A stretch of 53,568 nucleotides of DNA from Candidatus Zixiibacteriota bacterium (lineage in GTDB: Bacteria; Zixibacteria; MSB-5A5; UBA10806). Location: the NCBI GenBank assembly GCA_020344055.1, contig CP070813.1, positions 763,587-817,154 of the forward strand. The letters are read 5' to 3'. The notes below the pieces were generated by a model. The model saw only the letters and a list, made by a program, of their open reading frames with translations, did no database searches and was not told where the DNA came from. Positions 28,367-36,774 of the stretch are shown one piece after another. Made by a program: the position numbers and the translations under genes. Positions within the stretch are counted from its first letter, which is position 1. The number at the start of each line of letters is the position of its first letter.

Positions 28367-28912
28367 ATGAGTTTGAGACTTATTATCATCATCGCTTTCT
28401 GCGCCCTTTTGTTGGCATCTTTCGCCCAGGGGCAGACAATTAAATCCAAAACCGCCCCGGAATTTTCTTTGAAAGACATCAACGGCAAAAAAGTAACCTT
28501 AAAGGAATATTATGGAGAAGGGCCGGTTTATATCTCTTTTTGGGCCATATGGTGCAAACCCTGCCGCGAGGAATTGAAGATTATTCAAGGACTTTACGAA
28601 AAATACGAGGAATGCGGATTTAAGGTCCTTGCCATTAACACCGACGGTCCCAAGGCCGGGGGAAAAATTAAAAGCTTCGTTAAATCAAACGGCTGGTCCT
28701 TTAACATTCTTATCGATAACGACGGCGAGGTTTTCCGTCGCAAATACAAAGGATTTGCCCTCCCCTATACGGTGATGACCGACCCCGAGGGCAATATCGT
28801 CTTTACCACCATCGGTTTCAAACCTGGTGACGAAAAGCACGTTGAGGAACTGATACTCGAGCATATCCCGCAAACCACGTGCGCAATTGAAGAAACCGAA
28901 GCGGAGGACTAA
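28367..28912 (+). CDS. TlpA-like exported thioredoxin
   Basis: This is a 181-residue periplasmic thiol-disulfide oxidoreductase. A signal peptide (about 1-22) precedes a redox domain with SFWAIWCKPCREEL (Cys63 and Cys66) and the cis-proline in FALPYTVMTDPEG. TlpA proteins keep partner thiols reduced. The normal CxxC here contrasts with the TGA-containing UxxC genes that begin 1.6 kb downstream, and it could be a redox partner for them (inference). The next gene begins at the base after its stop. Confidence 0.9.
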   Translation: MSLRLIIIIAFCALLLASFAQGQTIKSKTAPEFSLKDINGKKVTLKEYYGEGPVYISFWAIWCKPCREELKIIQGLYEKYEECGFKVLAINTDGPKAGGKIKSFVKSNGWSFNILIDNDGEVFRRKYKGFALPYTVMTDPEGNIVFTTIGFKPGDEKHVEELILEHIPQTTCAIEETEAED

Positions 28913-30370
28913 TTGAAAAAATATATAGCCGTTCTCGCCGGGGGCGTTTTCTGCCTGCTGTCTCTCGCCGATAGCTGCCCGGCCCAGGAGGATTACTGGT
29001 CGGTTTCCGCCGCCAACTGGATGCAGTACTGGTACTTTGAGGATTCATTCAATTTCGCCGAAGCCCGTCGCGATTCCCTTGATAACCGTTTCATTGTCGA
29101 TTTCGACCTGGGCGATTTCTACGCCGGCGTATGGCTGAGAATACTTCAGCTCAACCGGCCCGACGAATCGTCCGAGGAAACTACCCAGCGATACTTCGGC
29201 TGGCGCCAGAATGGATTCAATATCCATGCCGGTAATTTTTACCAGGTTTTCGATAGGGGGCTTACGCTCAATACCTTCATCGATGACAACGTTTACTACG
29301 ACAATAACCTCGACGGGATAAAGGCCTCGGGACTCTACGATCGCTTCGATTTCGACTTTCTCTCGGCACGCGGCCTGGAATCCACCACAGGCGAAAGAGA
29401 TTATATTTTCAGGGGAGCGCGGGGCGCGGTCAGACCGGTTGATCCTTTCAAAATCGGCTTTTCATACGTTCGTTTTAAGAGAAACGATTTTATGAACGTC
29501 AACAGATCCCTGAATTCCAATATCACCGGCTTTAATTCCCGATTCGTTATGGGTCCTATCGATCTCTACGGAGAATATGCCGTGAGAAGAGGCAAAAAAC
29601 CGAATCCTTTCACCGAGGGTAATGGCGACGGAACCTATCTGTCCGCCTCCCTGGTTTTCGAGAAAATAAGCCTTTTCTCGGAATACAAAAATATAATAAA
29701 CCTGATCTACCCCAACCCCCAGAACCGTTTCAACGCGCCCCCGCCTGCCAGCCATAGCGGACGCACGCTTACCGATCTCGCCGGGGCGCCCGGCGAAAGA
29801 GGCTATCAGGTGGGAATCCTCATCTCCCCAACTTTCGATCTGAATTTCGAGTTCGCATACTCCGAAGCTTTTTCCAGGAGCACGCCGGTCGATTATTATC
29901 TGGGGGAAAAATTCGCCGGGGTTCGCTGGAGCGCGACGTCGGATCTGATCATGAATTACAGCTGGGACAGGATCGACTATGCCTTCGGCTTCAGCGGAGA
30001 GGATGAGATCGAAAATTACTTCGACGCATACTATTATTGGCGGTATAATGTAACTTTGTCTCTCGCCGCCTTTACCCGCAGATTTATCCCCGAAGGCAGC
30101 GAGGATTACCACGAAAATTATTTGACTCTGGGTTTTGGACTGGCCAATAAGTTTCAACTGAATCTCGGCGGATCAACCTCTAACTGGGATACCAATCCCG
30201 AAGGTGATCCCAAAAAACTTGCCTTTATCGAGCTGACCGTAAGGTTTCCAAATCATGAGCTGGTTATATTCAACGGGGGCGAACGAGGTGGATTGATCTG
30301 CTCTTCGGGTATTTGCCAGTCACGGCCGACCTTTCAGGGCACGCGAATCGTATTGTTTTCCAGATTCTAA
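28913..30370 (+). CDS. Predicted outer-membrane beta-barrel protein (DUF6029-like)
   Basis: This 485-residue protein has a signal peptide ending near SCPAQE and many short amphipathic strands rich in Tyr, Phe, Asp and Arg, ending SRPTFQGTRIVLFSRF with a terminal phenylalanine. That is a typical outer-membrane barrel profile, and it resembles DUF6029 proteins, though I am not certain of the family. The start is a TTG immediately after the TlpA stop (TAATTG), so translation is coupled. CSSGIC near the C-terminus is a pair of cysteines that a TlpA partner could act on. Confidence 0.65.
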   Translation: MKKYIAVLAGGVFCLLSLADSCPAQEDYWSVSAANWMQYWYFEDSFNFAEARRDSLDNRFIVDFDLGDFYAGVWLRILQLNRPDESSEETTQRYFGWRQNGFNIHAGNFYQVFDRGLTLNTFIDDNVYYDNNLDGIKASGLYDRFDFDFLSARGLESTTGERDYIFRGARGAVRPVDPFKIGFSYVRFKRNDFMNVNRSLNSNITGFNSRFVMGPIDLYGEYAVRRGKKPNPFTEGNGDGTYLSASLVFEKISLFSEYKNIINLIYPNPQNRFNAPPPASHSGRTLTDLAGAPGERGYQVGILISPTFDLNFEFAYSEAFSRSTPVDYYLGEKFAGVRWSATSDLIMNYSWDRIDYAFGFSGEDEIENYFDAYYYWRYNVTLSLAAFTRRFIPEGSEDYHENYLTLGFGLANKFQLNLGGSTSNWDTNPEGDPKKLAFIELTVRFPNHELVIFNGGERGGLICSSGICQSRPTFQGTRIVLFSRF

Positions 30371-30552: not shown

Positions 30553-31593
30553 ATGAAAATAGCTAAAGCGACATTGTTTATGGCGGCGGCGCTCCTTTGT
30601 ATTTCGGGTTCCGTTCCGGCCGCGGACAGGGTAGTCATCGGAGAGATGTTCACCAACGTCTCGTGACCGTACTGTCCTCCTGCTGATCAGGTCCTTGATC
30701 AGATGGCTATTAACATGGAAGAGGTGTTCACCGTAATACGTTATCATGTATGGTGGCCCGGTTCCGGAGATCCTTTCTGGCTTTACAACCAACCTGAAAT
30801 CCAGACAAGAAACTCATACTATGGCAATAATTACGCCCCTCACTGCTACTTCGATGGTGCCATCGACGGCGGATATTCCTACGGTGCCTGGCCCGGGATT
30901 GTCGATGGCAGAAGCCTGGTAAATTCGGATCTCCAGATGAATATTACCGGCTATTTCGATGAGAATACCGGCACCGGTGAATTTACGGTTTCTATCTATG
31001 CCGAAACGACGCCCGGACTATCTAACCTGAGACTGCGTTCCGTTATAACCGAATCCAACTGTGTCTACCAAAATAATCTCTGGAACCAGGTTTTCCGGGA
31101 TATGATTCCCTCCACTTACGGAGAGCCGATAACAATCACGCAGGGCGAAACCCTGGAATTCACCTACGATCTAACCATAAGCAATCCTCTGGTTCCCCGC
31201 AATTGCCAGGTGGTGGCTTTCGTGCAATCAGATCAGAACCGTGAAATCCTCCAGTCCGCAAAAGAATGGGTGACCGAACTCCAGCAAACCTCAGTCGACG
31301 ATGAGATAGCTTTCCCGACTCTGTTCAATCTCAGCCAGAATTACCCCAATCCTTTCAACGCTACCACCAAAATCGATTTCCTTAGCGAAGGCGGTAAAGT
31401 CAACCTGGCCGTATATAATGTCACCGGGTCCCTGGTTAAGACTCTGGTTGACGGTTCTCTCGAAGCCGGTTCGCATTCTATCATCTGGGACGGCAAAGAC
31501 AACAGCGGGTCCGAAGTTTCCTCCGGTATTTATTTCTATCGCCTCAGCGATTCCAGCGGAGAAAATGTCCGCAGAATGACTCTGCTGAAGTAA
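30553..31593 (+). CDS. Selenocysteine-containing Omp28/thioredoxin-like secreted protein 1 (TGA at codon 38)
   Basis: The full frame is 346 codons if TGA at 30664-30666 is read as selenocysteine. TAAGGAGG precedes the ATG. A signal peptide (about 1-24, cleaved near VPAAD) leads into VVIGEMFTNVS, then U38-P-Y-C41, a UxxC version of the glutaredoxin-like CPYC motif. The thioredoxin-like Omp28-type domain runs to about residue 225, with the likely cis-proline in NNYAPHCYFDG. A FlgD-like type IX sorting tag (NLSQNYPNPFN to RRMTLLK) fills about 258-346. A SECIS-like hairpin and a terminator go with it. Without recoding, only the part from Met51 is called and both signal peptide and active site are lost. 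Confidence 0.85.
30683..30702 (+). promoter_or_regulatory. SECIS-like stem-loop 1
   Basis: CTGATCA (30683-30689) pairs perfectly with TGATCAG (30696-30702) around the loop GGTCCT. The loop begins 23 nt after the TGA. A loop starting GGUC resembles the E. coli fdhF element (AGGUCU), and the spacing is within the known bacterial range of about 16-37 nt. Confidence 0.8.
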
Positions 31594-31620
31594 TCCGCTT
31601 TTATTTAGAGACTTATGAGC

Positions 31621-31647
31621 CCTTTCCCTCCGGAAAGGGCTTTTTTA
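31621..31647 (+). terminator. Rho-independent terminator after selenoprotein gene 1
   Basis: CCCTTTCC and GGAAAGGG form an 8-bp stem with a CTCC loop, followed by C and six T residues. It lies 28 bp after the stop codon. Confidence 0.88.
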
Positions 31648-31773
31648 TGAATATATAGGGATTGGATCTGAATTATCCTCAATTCGCGCAACCTTTCCGG
31701 AAAAAAATTTGTAATCTATAATAGATGAATATGATTCGCAGGCGGAATATATAATCCTAAAATAGGAGCGAAC

Positions 31774-32829
31774 ATGATCAAAATTGAAAACTTCATCCTT
31801 TCGGCTATGGCAGGTGTATTATTCATTTCACCTCAACCGATCGCAGCCGAAAGGATGGCGGTCGGCGAAATGATCACAAACACATCTTGAGGCCAATGCT
31901 ATACTGCTGATCTGGTCTTAGATCAGTTGGCGGTAGCCTATCAGGGCAATTTGGCCCTGGTGCGCTATCATTACTGGTGGCCCGATTATTACGATCCTTT
32001 TTTCCAGCATAACATTGCCGAAAATACTGACCGAATAAACTATTATGGTTCTGACTACGCCCCTCATTTTATAATCGATGGCATTATCGATGGCGCTTAT
32101 AACATCTACTCTTGGGACGGCTTGATCGCCGATAGAGTCAATGTCAGTTCTCCCCTGACGATAGATATTGACGGCAACTATGACGAAAATAATCAAAACG
32201 GGGAGGTAACCATCACGATATTTTGTGAAACAACCCCCTCCGTCTCCAACTTGAAATTGAGAGTCGCGCTCACTGAAAGCGATATCCAGTGGCAGGCGCC
32301 GAACGGGTCTAACATCCACAATCAGACTTTTCGCGATATGATTCCCAATACAACCGGCGAACCTTTTAGCATTAATCAGGGCGATACTCGGCAGTTTACT
32401 TATCAGTTCGAAATCAGAAATCCTCTCGTTCCGGAGAATTGCGGAATTATGGCATTCGTTCAATCAGATCAAAATCGGGAGATCTTACAGGGCAGCAAAA
32501 TCGGTATCCCCGACCTGATTCCACTTGACGTTTACGATAATCCCTCTATTCCGAATAATTTTGCCCTTAGTCAAAATTATCCTAATCCGTTCAACGCTGC
32601 CACCAGGATCGATTTCCATACCGAGGGCGTTAAAGTTAAGCTGGCCGTCTATGATGTCACCGGTTCTCTGGTTAAAACCCTGGTTGACGGTTCCCTCGAA
32701 ACCGGTTCGCATTCTATCGTCTGGGACGGCAAAGACAACAGCGGATCCGATGTTTCCTCCGGCGTATATTTCTATCGCCTCAGCGATTCCAGCGGAGAAA
32801 ATGTCCGCAGAATGACGCTGCTGAGGTAA
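31774..32829 (+). CDS. Selenocysteine-containing Omp28/thioredoxin-like secreted protein 2 (TGA at codon 39)
   Basis: The frame has 351 codons with TGA at 31888-31890 read as selenocysteine. A signal peptide (about 1-25, ending PIAAE) precedes VGEMITNTS and U39-G-Q-C42. The Omp28-type thioredoxin-like domain follows, with SDYAPHFIIDG carrying the putative cis-proline. The C-terminal tag runs from NNFALSQNYPNPFN to RRMTLLR. It has a TAGGAG ribosome binding site, its own SECIS-like hairpin and its own terminator. It is closer to copy 3 (same length, similar throughout) than to copies 1 and 4, so it probably arose by recent tandem duplication. Confidence 0.85.
31907..31926 (+). promoter_or_regulatory. 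SECIS-like stem-loop 2
   Basis: CTGATCT (31907-31913) pairs with AGATCAG (31920-31926) around the loop GGTCTT; an extra G-T pair can extend the stem. The loop starts 23 nt after the TGA, exactly as in the other three copies. Confidence 0.82.
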
Positions 32830-32853
32830 TCCGCTTTCATTTAAAGACTTATA

Positions 32854-32882
32854 AGCCCTTTCCTACCGGAAAGGGCTTTTTT
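32854..32882 (+). terminator. Rho-independent terminator after selenoprotein gene 2
   Basis: AGCCCTTTCC pairs with GGAAAGGGCT (10 bp, loop TACC) and runs into a T tract. It is a close copy of the terminator after gene 1. Confidence 0.9.
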
Positions 32883-33010
32883 ATATATCAGGTTAGGAAT
32901 TCATTTTCTTCCTATTTACGCAACTATTAGGGCGAAATATCTGTAATCAGTACAGGACGAGGACGGTCTGCTAATAATTTAACTTATATATTCTTAAAAA
33001 AGGAGCGTCA

Positions 33011-34066
33011 ATGAACAAAATCGAAAACTTGATTCTTTTGACCCTGGGGGGCTTATTATGCATCTCGCTACAGGTAATTGCCGCCGACAGAATGACGGTC
33101 GGCGAAATGATCACCAACACCTCGTGAGGCCCTTGCTATAACGCTGATCTGGTCTTAGATCAGTTGGCAATTACCTATCATGATGATTTGGCCTTGATAC
33201 GCTATCATGCCTGGACGCCCGGTTCCGGCGACCCTTTTTACCAGTACAACATTCCCCAAAACATTGCTCGAATAAACTATTACGGTTTTGACTATACCCC
33301 GCATTTTAGATTGGACGGCGTTGTTGACGGCACTTATAATACCGGAGCATGGAACGCATTAATCGCATATAGAATCAATATCAGTTCGCCTATGACCATT
33401 GACATTGACGGCAGCTATGACGAAAACAATCGAACCGGCGAAGTGACCATTACGGTATATTGTGAAGCCACACCTTCTGTTTCAAACCTGAAAATGAGAG
33501 TCGCGATTACTGAAAGTGGCATCCAGTGGCAGGCGCCGAACGGGTCTAATGTTCATGAACAGACTTTTCGCCATATGATCCCGAACGCAGCCGGTGAATC
33601 TTTCACCATAAACCAGGGCGATACGCAACAGTTTACTTACCAGTTTATTATCCCGAATCCTCTTCGTCCGGATTATTGCGATATTATAGCTTTCGTCCAA
33701 TCGGATCAGAACAAGGAGATTTTACAGGGCGGCAAAATCGGCATTCCAGATCTGGTCCCCCTTGACGTTTACGATGATCCCTCTTCACCGAACAACTTTG
33801 CCCTTAAACAAAATTACCCCAATCCGTTCAACGCTACCACCAGGATCGATTTCCTCGCCGAAGGCGGTAAAGTCAACCTCGCTGTCTATAATGTCACCGG
33901 TTCTCTGGTCAAAACACTGGTCGACGGCCCACTTGAAGCCGGCATACATTCTATCGTCTGGGACGGCAAAGACAACGGCGGATCCGATGTTTCCTCCGGT
34001 ATATATTTCTATCGCCTCAGCGATTCCTCCGGAGAAAGCGTCCGCAGAATGGCCTTGCTCAAGTAA
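33011..34066 (+). CDS. Selenocysteine-containing Omp28/thioredoxin-like secreted protein 3 (TGA at codon 39)
   Basis: The frame has 351 codons with TGA at 33125-33127 read as selenocysteine. AAAGGAGCG precedes the ATG. A signal peptide (about 1-25, ending VIAAD) is followed by VGEMITNTS and U39-G-P-C42, which is exactly the thioredoxin WCGPC context with Sec in place of the first Cys. FDYTPHFRLDG carries the putative cis-proline. The C-terminal tag runs from NNFALKQNYPNPFN to RRMALLK. It shares long stretches with copy 2, such as ITESGIQWQAPNGSNVH. Confidence 0.85.
33144..33163 (+). promoter_or_regulatory. SECIS-like stem-loop 3
   Basis: CTGATCT (33144-33150) pairs with AGATCAG (33157-33163) around the loop GGTCTT. 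The loop begins 23 nt after the TGA. The hairpin is identical to copy 2, while the 5' flank differs (CCCTTGCTATAAC against CCAATGCTATACT). Confidence 0.82.
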
Positions 34067-34092
34067 TCTTTCAGATCTTTTGATAGTAAAGA

Positions 34093-34120
34093 GCCCTCTC
34101 TTTGCAAGAGGGTCGTTTTT
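34093..34120 (+). terminator. Likely terminator after selenoprotein gene 3
   Basis: CCCTCT and AGAGGG form a 6-bp stem with a seven-base loop, followed by TCG and five T residues. It is weaker than the two preceding terminators. Confidence 0.6.
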
Positions 34121-34243
34121 CTGACCGGATTTGGCCAAACCAGAGAATCCGATCGAAAAATGAACCGATCGGGCAATGTTTAAATGATAAAAAGAACTAA
34201 ATCAAATATTGATTTTATTCCATGAAATGGTATATTCAGGCAA

Positions 34244-35320
34244 ATGATAGGGTACAACCAGACGAGAAATCGATTAGGAATTTTGCTTCCTGCGGCGCTT
34301 ATGGCCTTCTGCCTTTCGTTATCTTCATATTCGGCGGAAAGGCTGGTGGTGGGCGAACTGTTCACCAATTTTTCGTGAGGCGCCTGTTACAATGCTGGTC
34401 TGGTCATAGACCAGCTCGGAACCGAACTGGAACAGGGATTTGTCCCCATAGCCTATCATACCTGGTTTCCGATTCCCGATGATCCCTTCTACTTATATAA
34501 TCCGGCTGAAATACGAGACAGGATAGGATATTATGATATCCAGGCCGCGCCTCGCTTGATCGTGGATGGTACAATAGATTGCGGTAATGCGCCGGAGCTG
34601 TGGCGGCCCCACGTGGAAAACCGGATTCCGGTTGCGGCACCGCTGGTAATGTCTTTCACCGGATATTATATTCCTGATTCGCTTTCCGGGCAGTTTACCG
34701 TTACGATATTCGCCGAAGATGATCCGGGAGCGTCAAACCTATGGCTCCGGATCGCCCTGACCGAATCGGGAATATACTACCAGGCTCCTAATGGTGCCAC
34801 GATTCATAATTACATATTTCGCGACATGATTCCTTCTACCGAAGGTCATTATATAGAAATCAATCAGGGCGAAACCAGGCATTATACTTTCCCGTTTAAT
34901 GTGCCACAGCCGTTGGAGGCCGGCAATTGCGCGCTGGTCGCATTCGTGCAATCCGACCAGGACTGGCAGATATTGCAGGGCGCCAGAATCAAGATCCCCG
35001 ACCTAAATAATACCACCGAAATCGAGCAATTCACTGAAATTCCACAAAGATTCAACCTTGGGCAGAATTATCCAAACCCGTTTAATTCCAGTACCAGGAT
35101 TGATTTTGCCGTAGTTTCCGGATATGTAGACATAGCTATATTCGATATTACCGGCTCTCTCGTTAAGACATTGTATAAGGGCGAGTTGGACGGCGGTTCC
35201 CACAGCGTAGAATGGGACGGCAAGGATAATTACGATTCCGGGGTTTCATCCGGTATTTACTATTACAGGGTGAGAAATGGGGACGATTTCCGCGTCAATA
35301 AAATGACATATCTGAAATAA
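34244..35320 (+). CDS. Selenocysteine-containing Omp28/thioredoxin-like secreted protein 4 (TGA at codon 45)
   Basis: The frame has 358 codons with TGA at 34376-34378 read as selenocysteine. This is the most divergent copy. A longer signal region (LGILLPAALMAFCLSLSSYS, about 15-34) leads into LVVGELFTNFS and U45-G-A-C48; IQAAPRLIVDG carries the putative cis-proline, and the tag is LGQNYPNPFN to VNKMTYLK. The ATG at 34244 is chosen because it gives a signal peptide; the ribosome binding site (TCAGG) is weak, so the start is less sure than in copies 1-3. The gene most easily called here by other means starts at Met 34556, losing the active site. Confidence 0.78.
34395..34414 (+). promoter_or_regulatory. 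SECIS-like stem-loop 4
   Basis: CTGGTCT (34395-34401) pairs with AGACCAG (34408-34414) around the loop GGTCAT, starting 23 nt after the TGA. Compared with copies 2 and 3, one A-T pair has become G-C by changes on both arms. Confidence 0.82.
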
Positions 35321-35388: not shown

Positions 35389-36774
35389 CTATTTCAACAG
35401 GGTCATTTTCCCGGCGTAGCTATTTTTACCGATAACGATCTTTGAAAGATAGACTCCCGACGATTGTCCGGAAGCATCCCATAAAAACTTATATTCCCCG
35501 GCCTCGAAAAATCCATTAACGATGTATTCCAGCACCTGCCCGGTCACGTTGTAAACCGAAATCGAGACATCGGCCGGGCGATCGAGAACGCAACTGATTG
35601 TCACCGTTGAATTGAAGGGATTGGGATATATCGATTCCAGGCTGAAATCATCCGGCAGCTCATTATTACTTATCGAAGTAGGATTAGAGCAGTTCTCCCA
35701 CCAGGAAACATCATTATTTGAACATGCGGTTCCCAGCAGATCTATATCGCCGTCCTGATCCAGATCATGAGGAAAAATACCTGTAGCGTAACTGTAACCA
35801 TACTGAACAACATACTTTGTGAAATTGTAGTTACCGTCATTATCCCACCAGGCTAATTGATTGTTAAACCTACCGGCCGCCATCACGTCAATATCCCCGT
35901 CGAGATCGAGATCGTAGGCTTCAACGGCCTGGCCTCCCCCAAAGCCGTTGTCAATAGTGTGCTTTACGAAACTTTGATATCCATCATTTTCCCACCATGA
36001 GACATCACAATCAGCAGACGCGCAACCAATGATATCATTGTCACCGTCAAAACCTAAATCGACCGCCTTTGCCCAAAAGGCCGCATCATAATTATATTCA
36101 ACTACACGCTTGGTGAAATCTTGATATCCATTATTTTCCCACCATGCGATTTGATCAATATCCTCCGCGGGAGCGATTATATCTATATCTCCATCCAGGT
36201 CCAGATCAAAAGGATGTAGCTGTCGGATACCATAATAGTTATTGCTGATATCGTGCCTTGAAAAATTCTGTTCCCCATCGTTTTCCCACCACGATAAATA
36301 GCCAATATCCTCTCCGCAACCGATTACATCTACGTCGTCATCAAAATCAATGTCTATTGCGTAAACGTGGTGAGCACCATCATAATAGTTTTCGATAGAA
36401 TGCTTGTAAAATAATTGATGGCCATTATTCTCCCACCAGGCTATTTCATCTCCCGAATAAGCCGCACCCAGTATATCCATATCTTTATCTTTATCCAGAT
36501 CGACAGCAAATATGGAGCAAACTCCATAGAAACCTGTTGCCACTGGATGATCCATAAATCCTTGGTAACCGTTATTCTCCCACCAAGCAATCTCATGCCC
36601 TAAGTATGCCGCTCCGACCACATCGAAATCCCCGTCTCTATCCATATCTACAGGCAATGCCTGCCAGGCTCCTACAAACGCCGGGTCAATAGTGTGTTTT
36701 ATCCACTCAATCTCCTCAGCATCCGCCGAAAACACGGCAATTAACAAAACCGGAATTACGATATACTTTATCAT
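35389..36774 (-). CDS. Secreted VCBS/FG-GAP repeat protein with type IX-like sorting tag
   Basis: This 461-residue exported protein has a signal peptide (about 1-19) and roughly seven to eight repeats of about 50 residues. Each has a calcium-binding-like DxDxDGDxD loop followed by AWWENNG or SWWENDG, the pattern of FG-GAP/VCBS propeller repeats. The C-terminus (SIYPNPFNSTVTIS to AGKMTLLK) is the same kind of sorting tag as on the selenoproteins. It is convergent with selenoprotein gene 4. Likely surface-attached or secreted; its ligand is unknown. Confidence 0.85.
   Translation of the reverse strand: MIKYIVIPVLLIAVFSADAEEIEWIKHTIDPAFVGAWQALPVDMDRDGDFDVVGAAYLGHEIAWWENNGYQGFMDHPVATGFYGVCSIFAVDLDKDKDMDILGAAYSGDEIAWWENNGHQLFYKHSIENYYDGAHHVYAIDIDFDDDVDVIGCGEDIGYLSWWENDGEQNFSRHDISNNYYGIRQLHPFDLDLDGDIDIIAPAEDIDQIAWWENNGYQDFTKRVVEYNYDAAFWAKAVDLGFDGDNDIIGCASADCDVSWWENDGYQSFVKHTIDNGFGGGQAVEAYDLDLDGDIDVMAAGRFNNQLAWWDNDGNYNFTKYVVQYGYSYATGIFPHDLDQDGDIDLLGTACSNNDVSWWENCSNPTSISNNELPDDFSLESIYPNPFNSTVTISCVLDRPADVSISVYNVTGQVLEYIVNGFFEAGEYKFLWDASGQSSGVYLSKIVIGKNSYAGKMTLLK

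Follow-up and report, generated by a model that had tools for sequence, protein, structure and literature searches.

A stretch of 53,568 nucleotides from the genome of a Candidatus Zixiibacteriota bacterium (contig CP070813.1, positions 763,587 to 817,154; hereafter the window, meaning the whole stretch analysed) carries four adjacent genes, each with one in-frame TGA at the first position of a thioredoxin-type motif, and these genes very probably encode selenoproteins with selenocysteine (Sec, U) as the first residue of a UxxC site. The observations—open frames, TGA where homologues have Cys, machinery genes, a fold match to HBP35, a type-IX-like tail and recurring neighbours—are brought together in an account which, taken as a whole, appears probable: Sec would be read at the single TGA by the genome's own machinery, and the proteins, likely exported by a type IX secretion system (T9SS), would engage in disulfide exchange or reduction outside the cell.

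When the TGA is translated and not taken as a stop, each of the four frames stays open, beginning with an N-terminal signal-like peptide and ending at a TAA stop. Translation with read-through finds exactly one in-frame TGA per gene, confirming the original prediction of four adjacent frames that run from a signal peptide through a single TGA to a normal C-terminus, and places this codon at the first residue of the motifs UPYC, UGQC, UGPC and UGAC as that prediction held (Table 1). Genes 1–3 start at an ATG preceded by an AGGAG-type ribosome site; for gene 4, judged from the sequence, the likeliest start is ATG 34244, which has no such site and is less sure. A scan of the whole window in six frames for UxxC sites that have an open stretch of 200 or more residues behind and of 25 before, uninterrupted by a stop or TGA, returned genes 1–4 only. 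With identities to gene 3 of 58% (gene 1), 74% (gene 2) and 45% (gene 4), the genes are, by their sequences, tandem paralogues. All four pass the gathering cut-off of Pfam Omp28 (PF11551; 34.9 bits), with 55.2, 66.4, 61.1 and 50.2 bits for genes 1 to 4. The structural model of gene 3 (mean predicted local distance difference test score 89.5) comprises a thioredoxin fold, an immunoglobulin (Ig)-like domain, a linker and a beta-rich tail, and this model together with the alignment places the UxxC motif of all four genes within the thioredoxin-like fold.

Relatives were sought in 58 genomes, including the window's own, with a profile of the four genes, and 40 stretches, two of them from the window genome, were taken and scanned in all frames with TGA read through. 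Among the 59 domain matches, window included, the two motif positions are U/C in 34, C/C in 16, C/S in 3, C/A in 2 and N/C in 1, the remainder being one fragment with U but no second position and two fragments without the motif. The motif TGA is the sole TGA inside the domain in all 34 complete TGA copies, and at the corresponding position 21 of the 22 complete copies without TGA have Cys and one has Asn, so that alignment with Cys-containing homologues, proposed with the original prediction, does place Cys at the TGA codon. A search with the domain alone across 132 genomes of the phylum found the family in 17 at E 1e-10, with 43 genes carrying TGA and 26 without it (71 rows, split rows merged); at least one TGA copy is present in 14 of these 17 genomes and none in G005, G006 and G007. 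TGA also occupies the motif in one record of candidate division TA06 (L118). In six Neomarinimicrobiota loci (L130–L135) the domain carries Cys and is free of TGA, but these came from a scan seeded with Cys in the motif. Elsewhere in the window genome there are a fifth Sec-type Omp28 gene (UPGC; L104:1916-3379), which keeps eight of the nine pairs of the hairpin A described below, and a Cys-type copy (CPYC; L105:1552-2562). The domain tree (63 rows) does not support a single origin of Sec, since it calls for no fewer than 12 changes between Sec and Cys, with 21 of 60 inner branches left open for weak support.

These distributions bear on the possibility that the TGA is a true stop, the genes then being pseudogenes or yielding only two separate products, a short peptide that is secreted and a C-terminal protein begun at an internal start. 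An ordinary open reading frame listing does end at the TGA and restart behind it, and similarly shortened proteins are common in the database: among 432 relatives, 104 of the 120 listed have the domain (the window genes themselves included), and among these listed matches 60 start behind the motif, one lacks an aligned motif and the others carry Cys (41), Trp (one) or Asn (one) there. HBP35 itself, according to passages of PMC2907840, has been reported with shorter forms lacking the thioredoxin domain. The 60 short records are, however, what would be expected of gene callers stopping at UGA, although some may be fragments at contig ends, and they pose an annotation problem in that they lack the active site. 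A true stop is also at odds with the occurrence of the TGA in copies from 14 genomes and of Cys in most others, with the absence of a second TGA from the domain of the 34 complete copies, and with the open and conserved frame behind the TGA, broken copies being found in just two of 12 loci (G001 and G026). The first start behind the TGA, moreover, is an ATG in gene 1 only and a TTG in genes 2–4. Having been tested, this explanation was set aside as very improbable.

The means for reading the TGA as Sec are encoded in the same genome (single contig, 3.83 Mb, 90.31% complete, 3.13% contaminated), whose closest named proteins and records are those of Candidatus Zixiibacteriota metagenome-assembled genomes. 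All the components sought are present: selB, selA and selD lie in a row at 1600362-1604601 and a tRNA-Sec with anticodon tca, identified by ARAGORN, at 425298-425389. The selD frame itself contains an in-frame TGA within CAGUAAK, and for Sec-SelD Table 1 of PMC13188914 gives the motif UxxK; independently of the array, the genome has here another in-frame TGA where Sec is known to occur. A selA match is present in all 17 family-bearing genomes, above the cut-off in 16 and partial in G033. The same data speak to a genome-wide reassignment of TGA as an ordinary sense codon, for example for Trp or Gly, which would likewise leave the frames open through the TGA. Three of the 27 window genes counted end in TGA, however, the TGA in selD and in the Omp28 domains falls only at Sec/Cys positions, and a tRNA-Sec with the tca anticodon is present; reassignment was also tested and set aside, its likelihood being negligible.

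A selenocysteine insertion sequence (SECIS) was sought behind each TGA with our own script of the published rules in place of the bSECISearch program. The bacterial model (bSECIS; PMC13188914, section 5) describes a loop of 3-9 nt with a G in the first two positions, lying 16-37 nt behind the UGA, and an energy of -7.5 kcal/mol or lower. A SECIS-type hairpin was found behind each of the four TGAs (Table 1), and the scan was passed by 31 of 36 Sec copies (the 34 together with L110 and L118) versus 5 of 22 non-Sec copies. The five failures include L104, probably because the script rejects stretches with a second hairpin. Folded freely to minimum energy, genes 1, 3 and 4 show the hairpin; in gene 2, the unconstrained stretch pairs otherwise, with a different loop. 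Under synonymous recoding, which keeps the protein, Sec copies have a mean z of -1.16 and non-Sec copies of 0.00; of 200 recodings, 16 fold as well as the natural sequence in gene 2, one in gene 3 and three in gene 4.

One SECIS common to all Sec copies was rejected in favour of hairpins A, B and a third, distributed by family. Hairpin A, GCUGAUCU-GGUCUU-AGAUCAG, is carried by most copies of families f1 and f2 and by one G033 copy, and 18 of 34 Sec copies keep eight or nine of its nine pairs, whereas none of the 22 non-Sec copies keeps more than seven at the same place. Across 19 aligned copies, pairing holds in 95.3% of cells and four of nine pairs have changed on both sides, which none of 500 shuffles reaches; slid versions give at most two doubly changed pairs and 36.3% pairing. 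Gene 1 and its nearest copy in G001 have A-U in place of the usual U-A. In hairpin B, found in most f4 and f5 copies, the stem begins 12 bases later; over 15 copies 81.9% of cells are paired and three pairs have changed on both sides, a number reached by 22 of 500 shuffles and by one slid version, the covariation score being reached by none of the 500. The third hairpin, GCGGC-AGUU-GCCGC in f16 copies, was identified by eye and is exact in three of seven, has one G-U pair in three and is a four-pair variant in one; when three f16 pieces were folded freely it was best in two and absent in one (39 bases, fourth gene). The SECIS support is thus real for the group and modest for any single gene. 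Along with the machinery and the Cys of the homologues, the hairpins uphold the proposal that all four are UxxC selenoproteins.

Several points nevertheless weigh against this reading. The selenoproteins are predicted from their genes, no protein, peptide or selenium having been observed. Since selB is above the cut-off in 50 of the 58 genomes searched (own included) and only 14 of those 50 have the Omp28 family at E 1e-10, the Sec machinery permits the reading but does not point to these genes. The general SECIS rules, as noted, also admit 5 of 22 Cys-type copies, and only 11 of 36 Sec copies lie at 5% or lower against synonymous recoding (none of the 22 non-Sec copies does so). The hairpin of gene 1 is unremarkable, with 55 of 200 recodings as stable and a z of -0.90 against shuffles. 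The grouping into 19 and 15 copies was made after the hairpins had been seen and favours the first structure. As the hairpin overlies the conserved peptide ADLVLDQL, part of its conservation reflects constraint on the protein. As to the rest of the account, type IX export is argued from homology alone, the C-terminal domain resembles FlgD no less than PorU, a distant array (G130) ends in dockerins and not in the T9SS-type tail, and the roles of the TlpA-like and DUF6029 neighbours are deduced from position alone.

Export of the four proteins as T9SS cargo, judged by their sequences, is rather likely. All pass the TIGR04183 model (T9SS type A; cut-off 23), with 34.7, 32.7, 35.3 and 30.4 bits for genes 1 to 4, and Pfam Por_Secre_tail (cut-off 27) is matched by gene 1 with 30.3 bits and by gene 4 just under the cut-off with 26.9. 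The translocon parts SprA and 14 PorV-family proteins are encoded in the genome, and the T9SS-type tail is very abundant there, with at least 144 further places matching the tail part of the query. The passing scores, the encoded SprA and PorV-family proteins and this abundance tell against the view that the selenoproteins are retained in the periplasm or outer membrane and act there as DsbA/DsbC-like oxidoreductases folding exported proteins, the tail being a FlgD-like Ig domain without a role in secretion. The FlgD match and the G130 dockerins fit that view, as does the TlpA/ResA-like neighbour; thioredoxins of this kind are generally of a periplasmic type. An hbp35 plasmid has also been reported, in passages of PMC2907840, to complement an Escherichia coli dsbA mutant. 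On balance, retention in the periplasm appears unlikely, though it is the most serious of the alternatives weighed here.

Table 1. Positions in the window of the four genes, their predicted hairpins, the stem-loops behind them and the genes upstream.
Feature	Position	Strand	Remarks
TlpA/ResA-like thioredoxin gene, WAIWCKPC (Cys form)	28367..28912	+	Pfam AhpC-TSA 86.1 bits; upstream of array
DUF6029 gene	28913..30370	+	Pfam DUF6029 61.9 bits; directly upstream of gene 1
Gene 1, predicted secreted selenoprotein, 346 amino acids, UPYC	30553..31593	+	TGA codon 30664
Predicted bSECIS hairpin, gene 1	30682..30703	+	-10.1 kcal/mol; 8/9 pairs; one U-A turned A-U
Terminator-like stem-loop behind gene 1	31617..31642	+	11 pairs, then T run
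Gene 2, predicted secreted selenoprotein, 351 amino acids, UGQC	31774..32829	+	TGA codon 31888
Predicted bSECIS hairpin, gene 2	31906..31927	+	-14.3 kcal/mol; 9/9 pairs
Terminator-like stem-loop behind gene 2	32853..32878	+	near copy of that behind gene 1
Gene 3, predicted secreted selenoprotein, 351 amino acids, UGPC	33011..34066	+	TGA codon 33125
Predicted bSECIS hairpin, gene 3	33143..33164	+	-14.9 kcal/mol; 9/9 pairs
Terminator-like stem-loop behind gene 3	34093..34113	+	
Gene 4, predicted secreted selenoprotein, ~358 amino acids, UGAC	34244..35320	+	TGA codon 34376; start less sure
Predicted bSECIS hairpin, gene 4	34394..34415	+	-15.9 kcal/mol; 9/9 pairs; A-U to G-C, both sides

Arrays were compared at 12 loci, the window and 11 further ones, and at least two intact tandem Sec copies are present in nine of them. 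There are four Sec copies in the window (G000) and in G130, three in G008, three beside one Cys copy in G020 and in G033, two in G002, G010 and G131, two beside one Cys copy in G011, and one in G129; G001 has one Sec copy and one TGA copy with a broken frame, and G026 one Cys copy and one such broken TGA copy. The dipeptides between Sec and Cys are all distinct in six of the nine multi-Sec arrays and repeated in G002, G008 and G020. In these two broken copies, one in G001 (L066) and one in G026 (L110 and L084), the frame breaks shortly behind the motif with the TGA kept, which may reflect decay or assembly error. Within the window array, genes 2 and 3 cluster at 99% in the domain tree, the copy nearest to gene 1 is that of the same-genus genome G001, also with TGA, and in G001 only genes 1 and 4 have a closest counterpart; the pair of genes 2 and 3 is therefore either a gain of the window's lineage or a loss in G001. 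The DNA of gene 1 resembles that of gene 3 more closely in the tail (85.8%) than in a front stretch (70.1%), which suggests sequence exchange between their tails. Terminator-like stem-loops lie between the genes, so that a single transcript for the whole array is doubted, although such loops are not enriched (10 in the region versus 8.6 expected from shuffles).

Relatives of the TlpA-like and DUF6029 genes flank one side of the array in 11 of the 12 loci, window included, directly adjoining it in the f1–f5 loci and standing one to two genes off in G129 and G130; the locus without them, G131, has its genes near a contig end. The TlpA-like gene scores 104.5 bits against NCBIfam ResA (PRK03147), below the cut-off of 170, and the DUF6029 product may be an outer-membrane beta-barrel. 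Directly upstream of the Sec genes in two f16 genomes, at L142 (G131) and L143 (G129), lies a gene for what we take to be an iron-sulphur membrane protein (NapH-like), a possible electron source. In the distant G130 (L145, G130:C1:2460500-2479000), selD, selA and selB lie upstream of the four UxxC genes, their end some 2 kb away, selD again with a TGA, in SAGUAAK; three of these four tandem Omp28-like genes, which have dockerin ends, score below the Pfam Omp28 cut-off. One gene, amidohydrolase-like by reading of its sequence, separates the sel genes from the array, and two TlpA-like genes and DUF6029 are found in the same stretch. On the opposite strand of the window, a gene at 35389-36774 with presumably FG-GAP-like repeats has a similar PNPFN-type tail and stands beside the array in G001 too.

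In the mechanism that we propose, SelB would act on the hairpin, with its apical loop 23-24 bases behind each UGA, and the signal peptide would direct the protein into the periplasm, where the C-terminal domain would be taken up by SprA/PorV-type translocons and carried across the outer membrane. The Sec would then act as the attacking residue on substrate disulfides or on oxidants and the second Cys as the resolving one, with the nearby TlpA-like protein as a putative electron-supplying partner in the periplasm and the DUF6029 protein as a candidate partner in the outer membrane. Through their dipeptides PY, GQ, GP and GA, the copies may differ in redox potential or in substrate. More tentatively, Zixibacteria might possess an expandable extracellular selenium redox kit, a recurring TlpA–DUF6029–Omp28 module whose exported thioredoxin has been converted to Sec and multiplied in tandem, separately in several families, each copy being tuned by its dipeptide to another redox potential or substrate.

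Bacteria generally use selenocysteine sparingly. If the proposal is true, the four proteins would be the first type IX-exported selenoproteins known to us, and the G130 array right behind selD-selA-selB may be a main reason why that lineage keeps its selenium machinery. The repeated tandem multiplication, with Cys paralogues in some of the same arrays, offers a naturally occurring set of cases in which the choice of Sec over Cys can be studied. Work outside the cell, as predicted here, is uncommon among the entries considered from Table 1 of PMC13188914, where a few outer-membrane selenoproteins appear. That no tandem array of this family had been described, as first supposed, agrees with the literature found: among titles, abstract starts and some passages on selenoproteins with Omp28, type IX secretion, tandem duplication, or Zixibacteria and selenocysteine, no such array appears. 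No paper was found that joins selenoproteins with Omp28; the one for type IX secretion is by its title unrelated, and the one for tandem duplication of selenoprotein genes deals, by its listing, with Planctomycetes genomes. Zixibacteria and selenocysteine are both mentioned in PMC8318568, whose two passages on Zixibacteria deal with genome recovery alone; the searched text of PMC12013277 has no match for Omp28 or tandem, and that of PMC1794560 and PMC2398784 none for tandem.

Sec in the Omp28 superfamily is not new, being already on record as NCBIfam NF045500 'Omp28-related selenoprotein', which equals 'hypothetical protein GOS_C' (PMC2398784; Table 1 of the 2026 review PMC13188914), a thioredoxin-like UxxC protein from 74 ocean sequences described in the pages of PMC2398784 consulted without functional evidence. 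The window genes resemble it in homology over the thioredoxin and Omp28 part, in Sec at the first position of UxxC and in having Cys homologues, and NF045500 matches all 44 copies scanned (44 of the 56 complete ones; best E 2.9e-21). They score only 60.6, 56.0, 63.7 and 46.9 bits against its cut-off of 200, however, and, compared with the family's profile and published description, differ in the T9SS-type tail, the tandem arrays and the TlpA/DUF6029 neighbours; array, tail and neighbourhood were not found in print. Sec-containing thioredoxin, DsbA-like and DsbG-like selenoproteins share UxxC in thioredoxin-fold families but belong to other families, for which the entries of Table 1 (PMC13188914) give no Omp28 domain or T9SS tail. 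The SAO and Tso operons (PMC13188914, section 9) likewise place several selenoprotein genes side by side, but they join different families in one operon, none being described in that section as a one-family tandem repeat, whereas the arrays reported here repeat one family in tandem with terminator-like signals between the genes. HBP35 of Porphyromonas gingivalis (PDB 5y1a) has Cys instead of Sec and 14% identity over the aligned part, and the modelled protein shares its fold over the thioredoxin and Ig-like domains.

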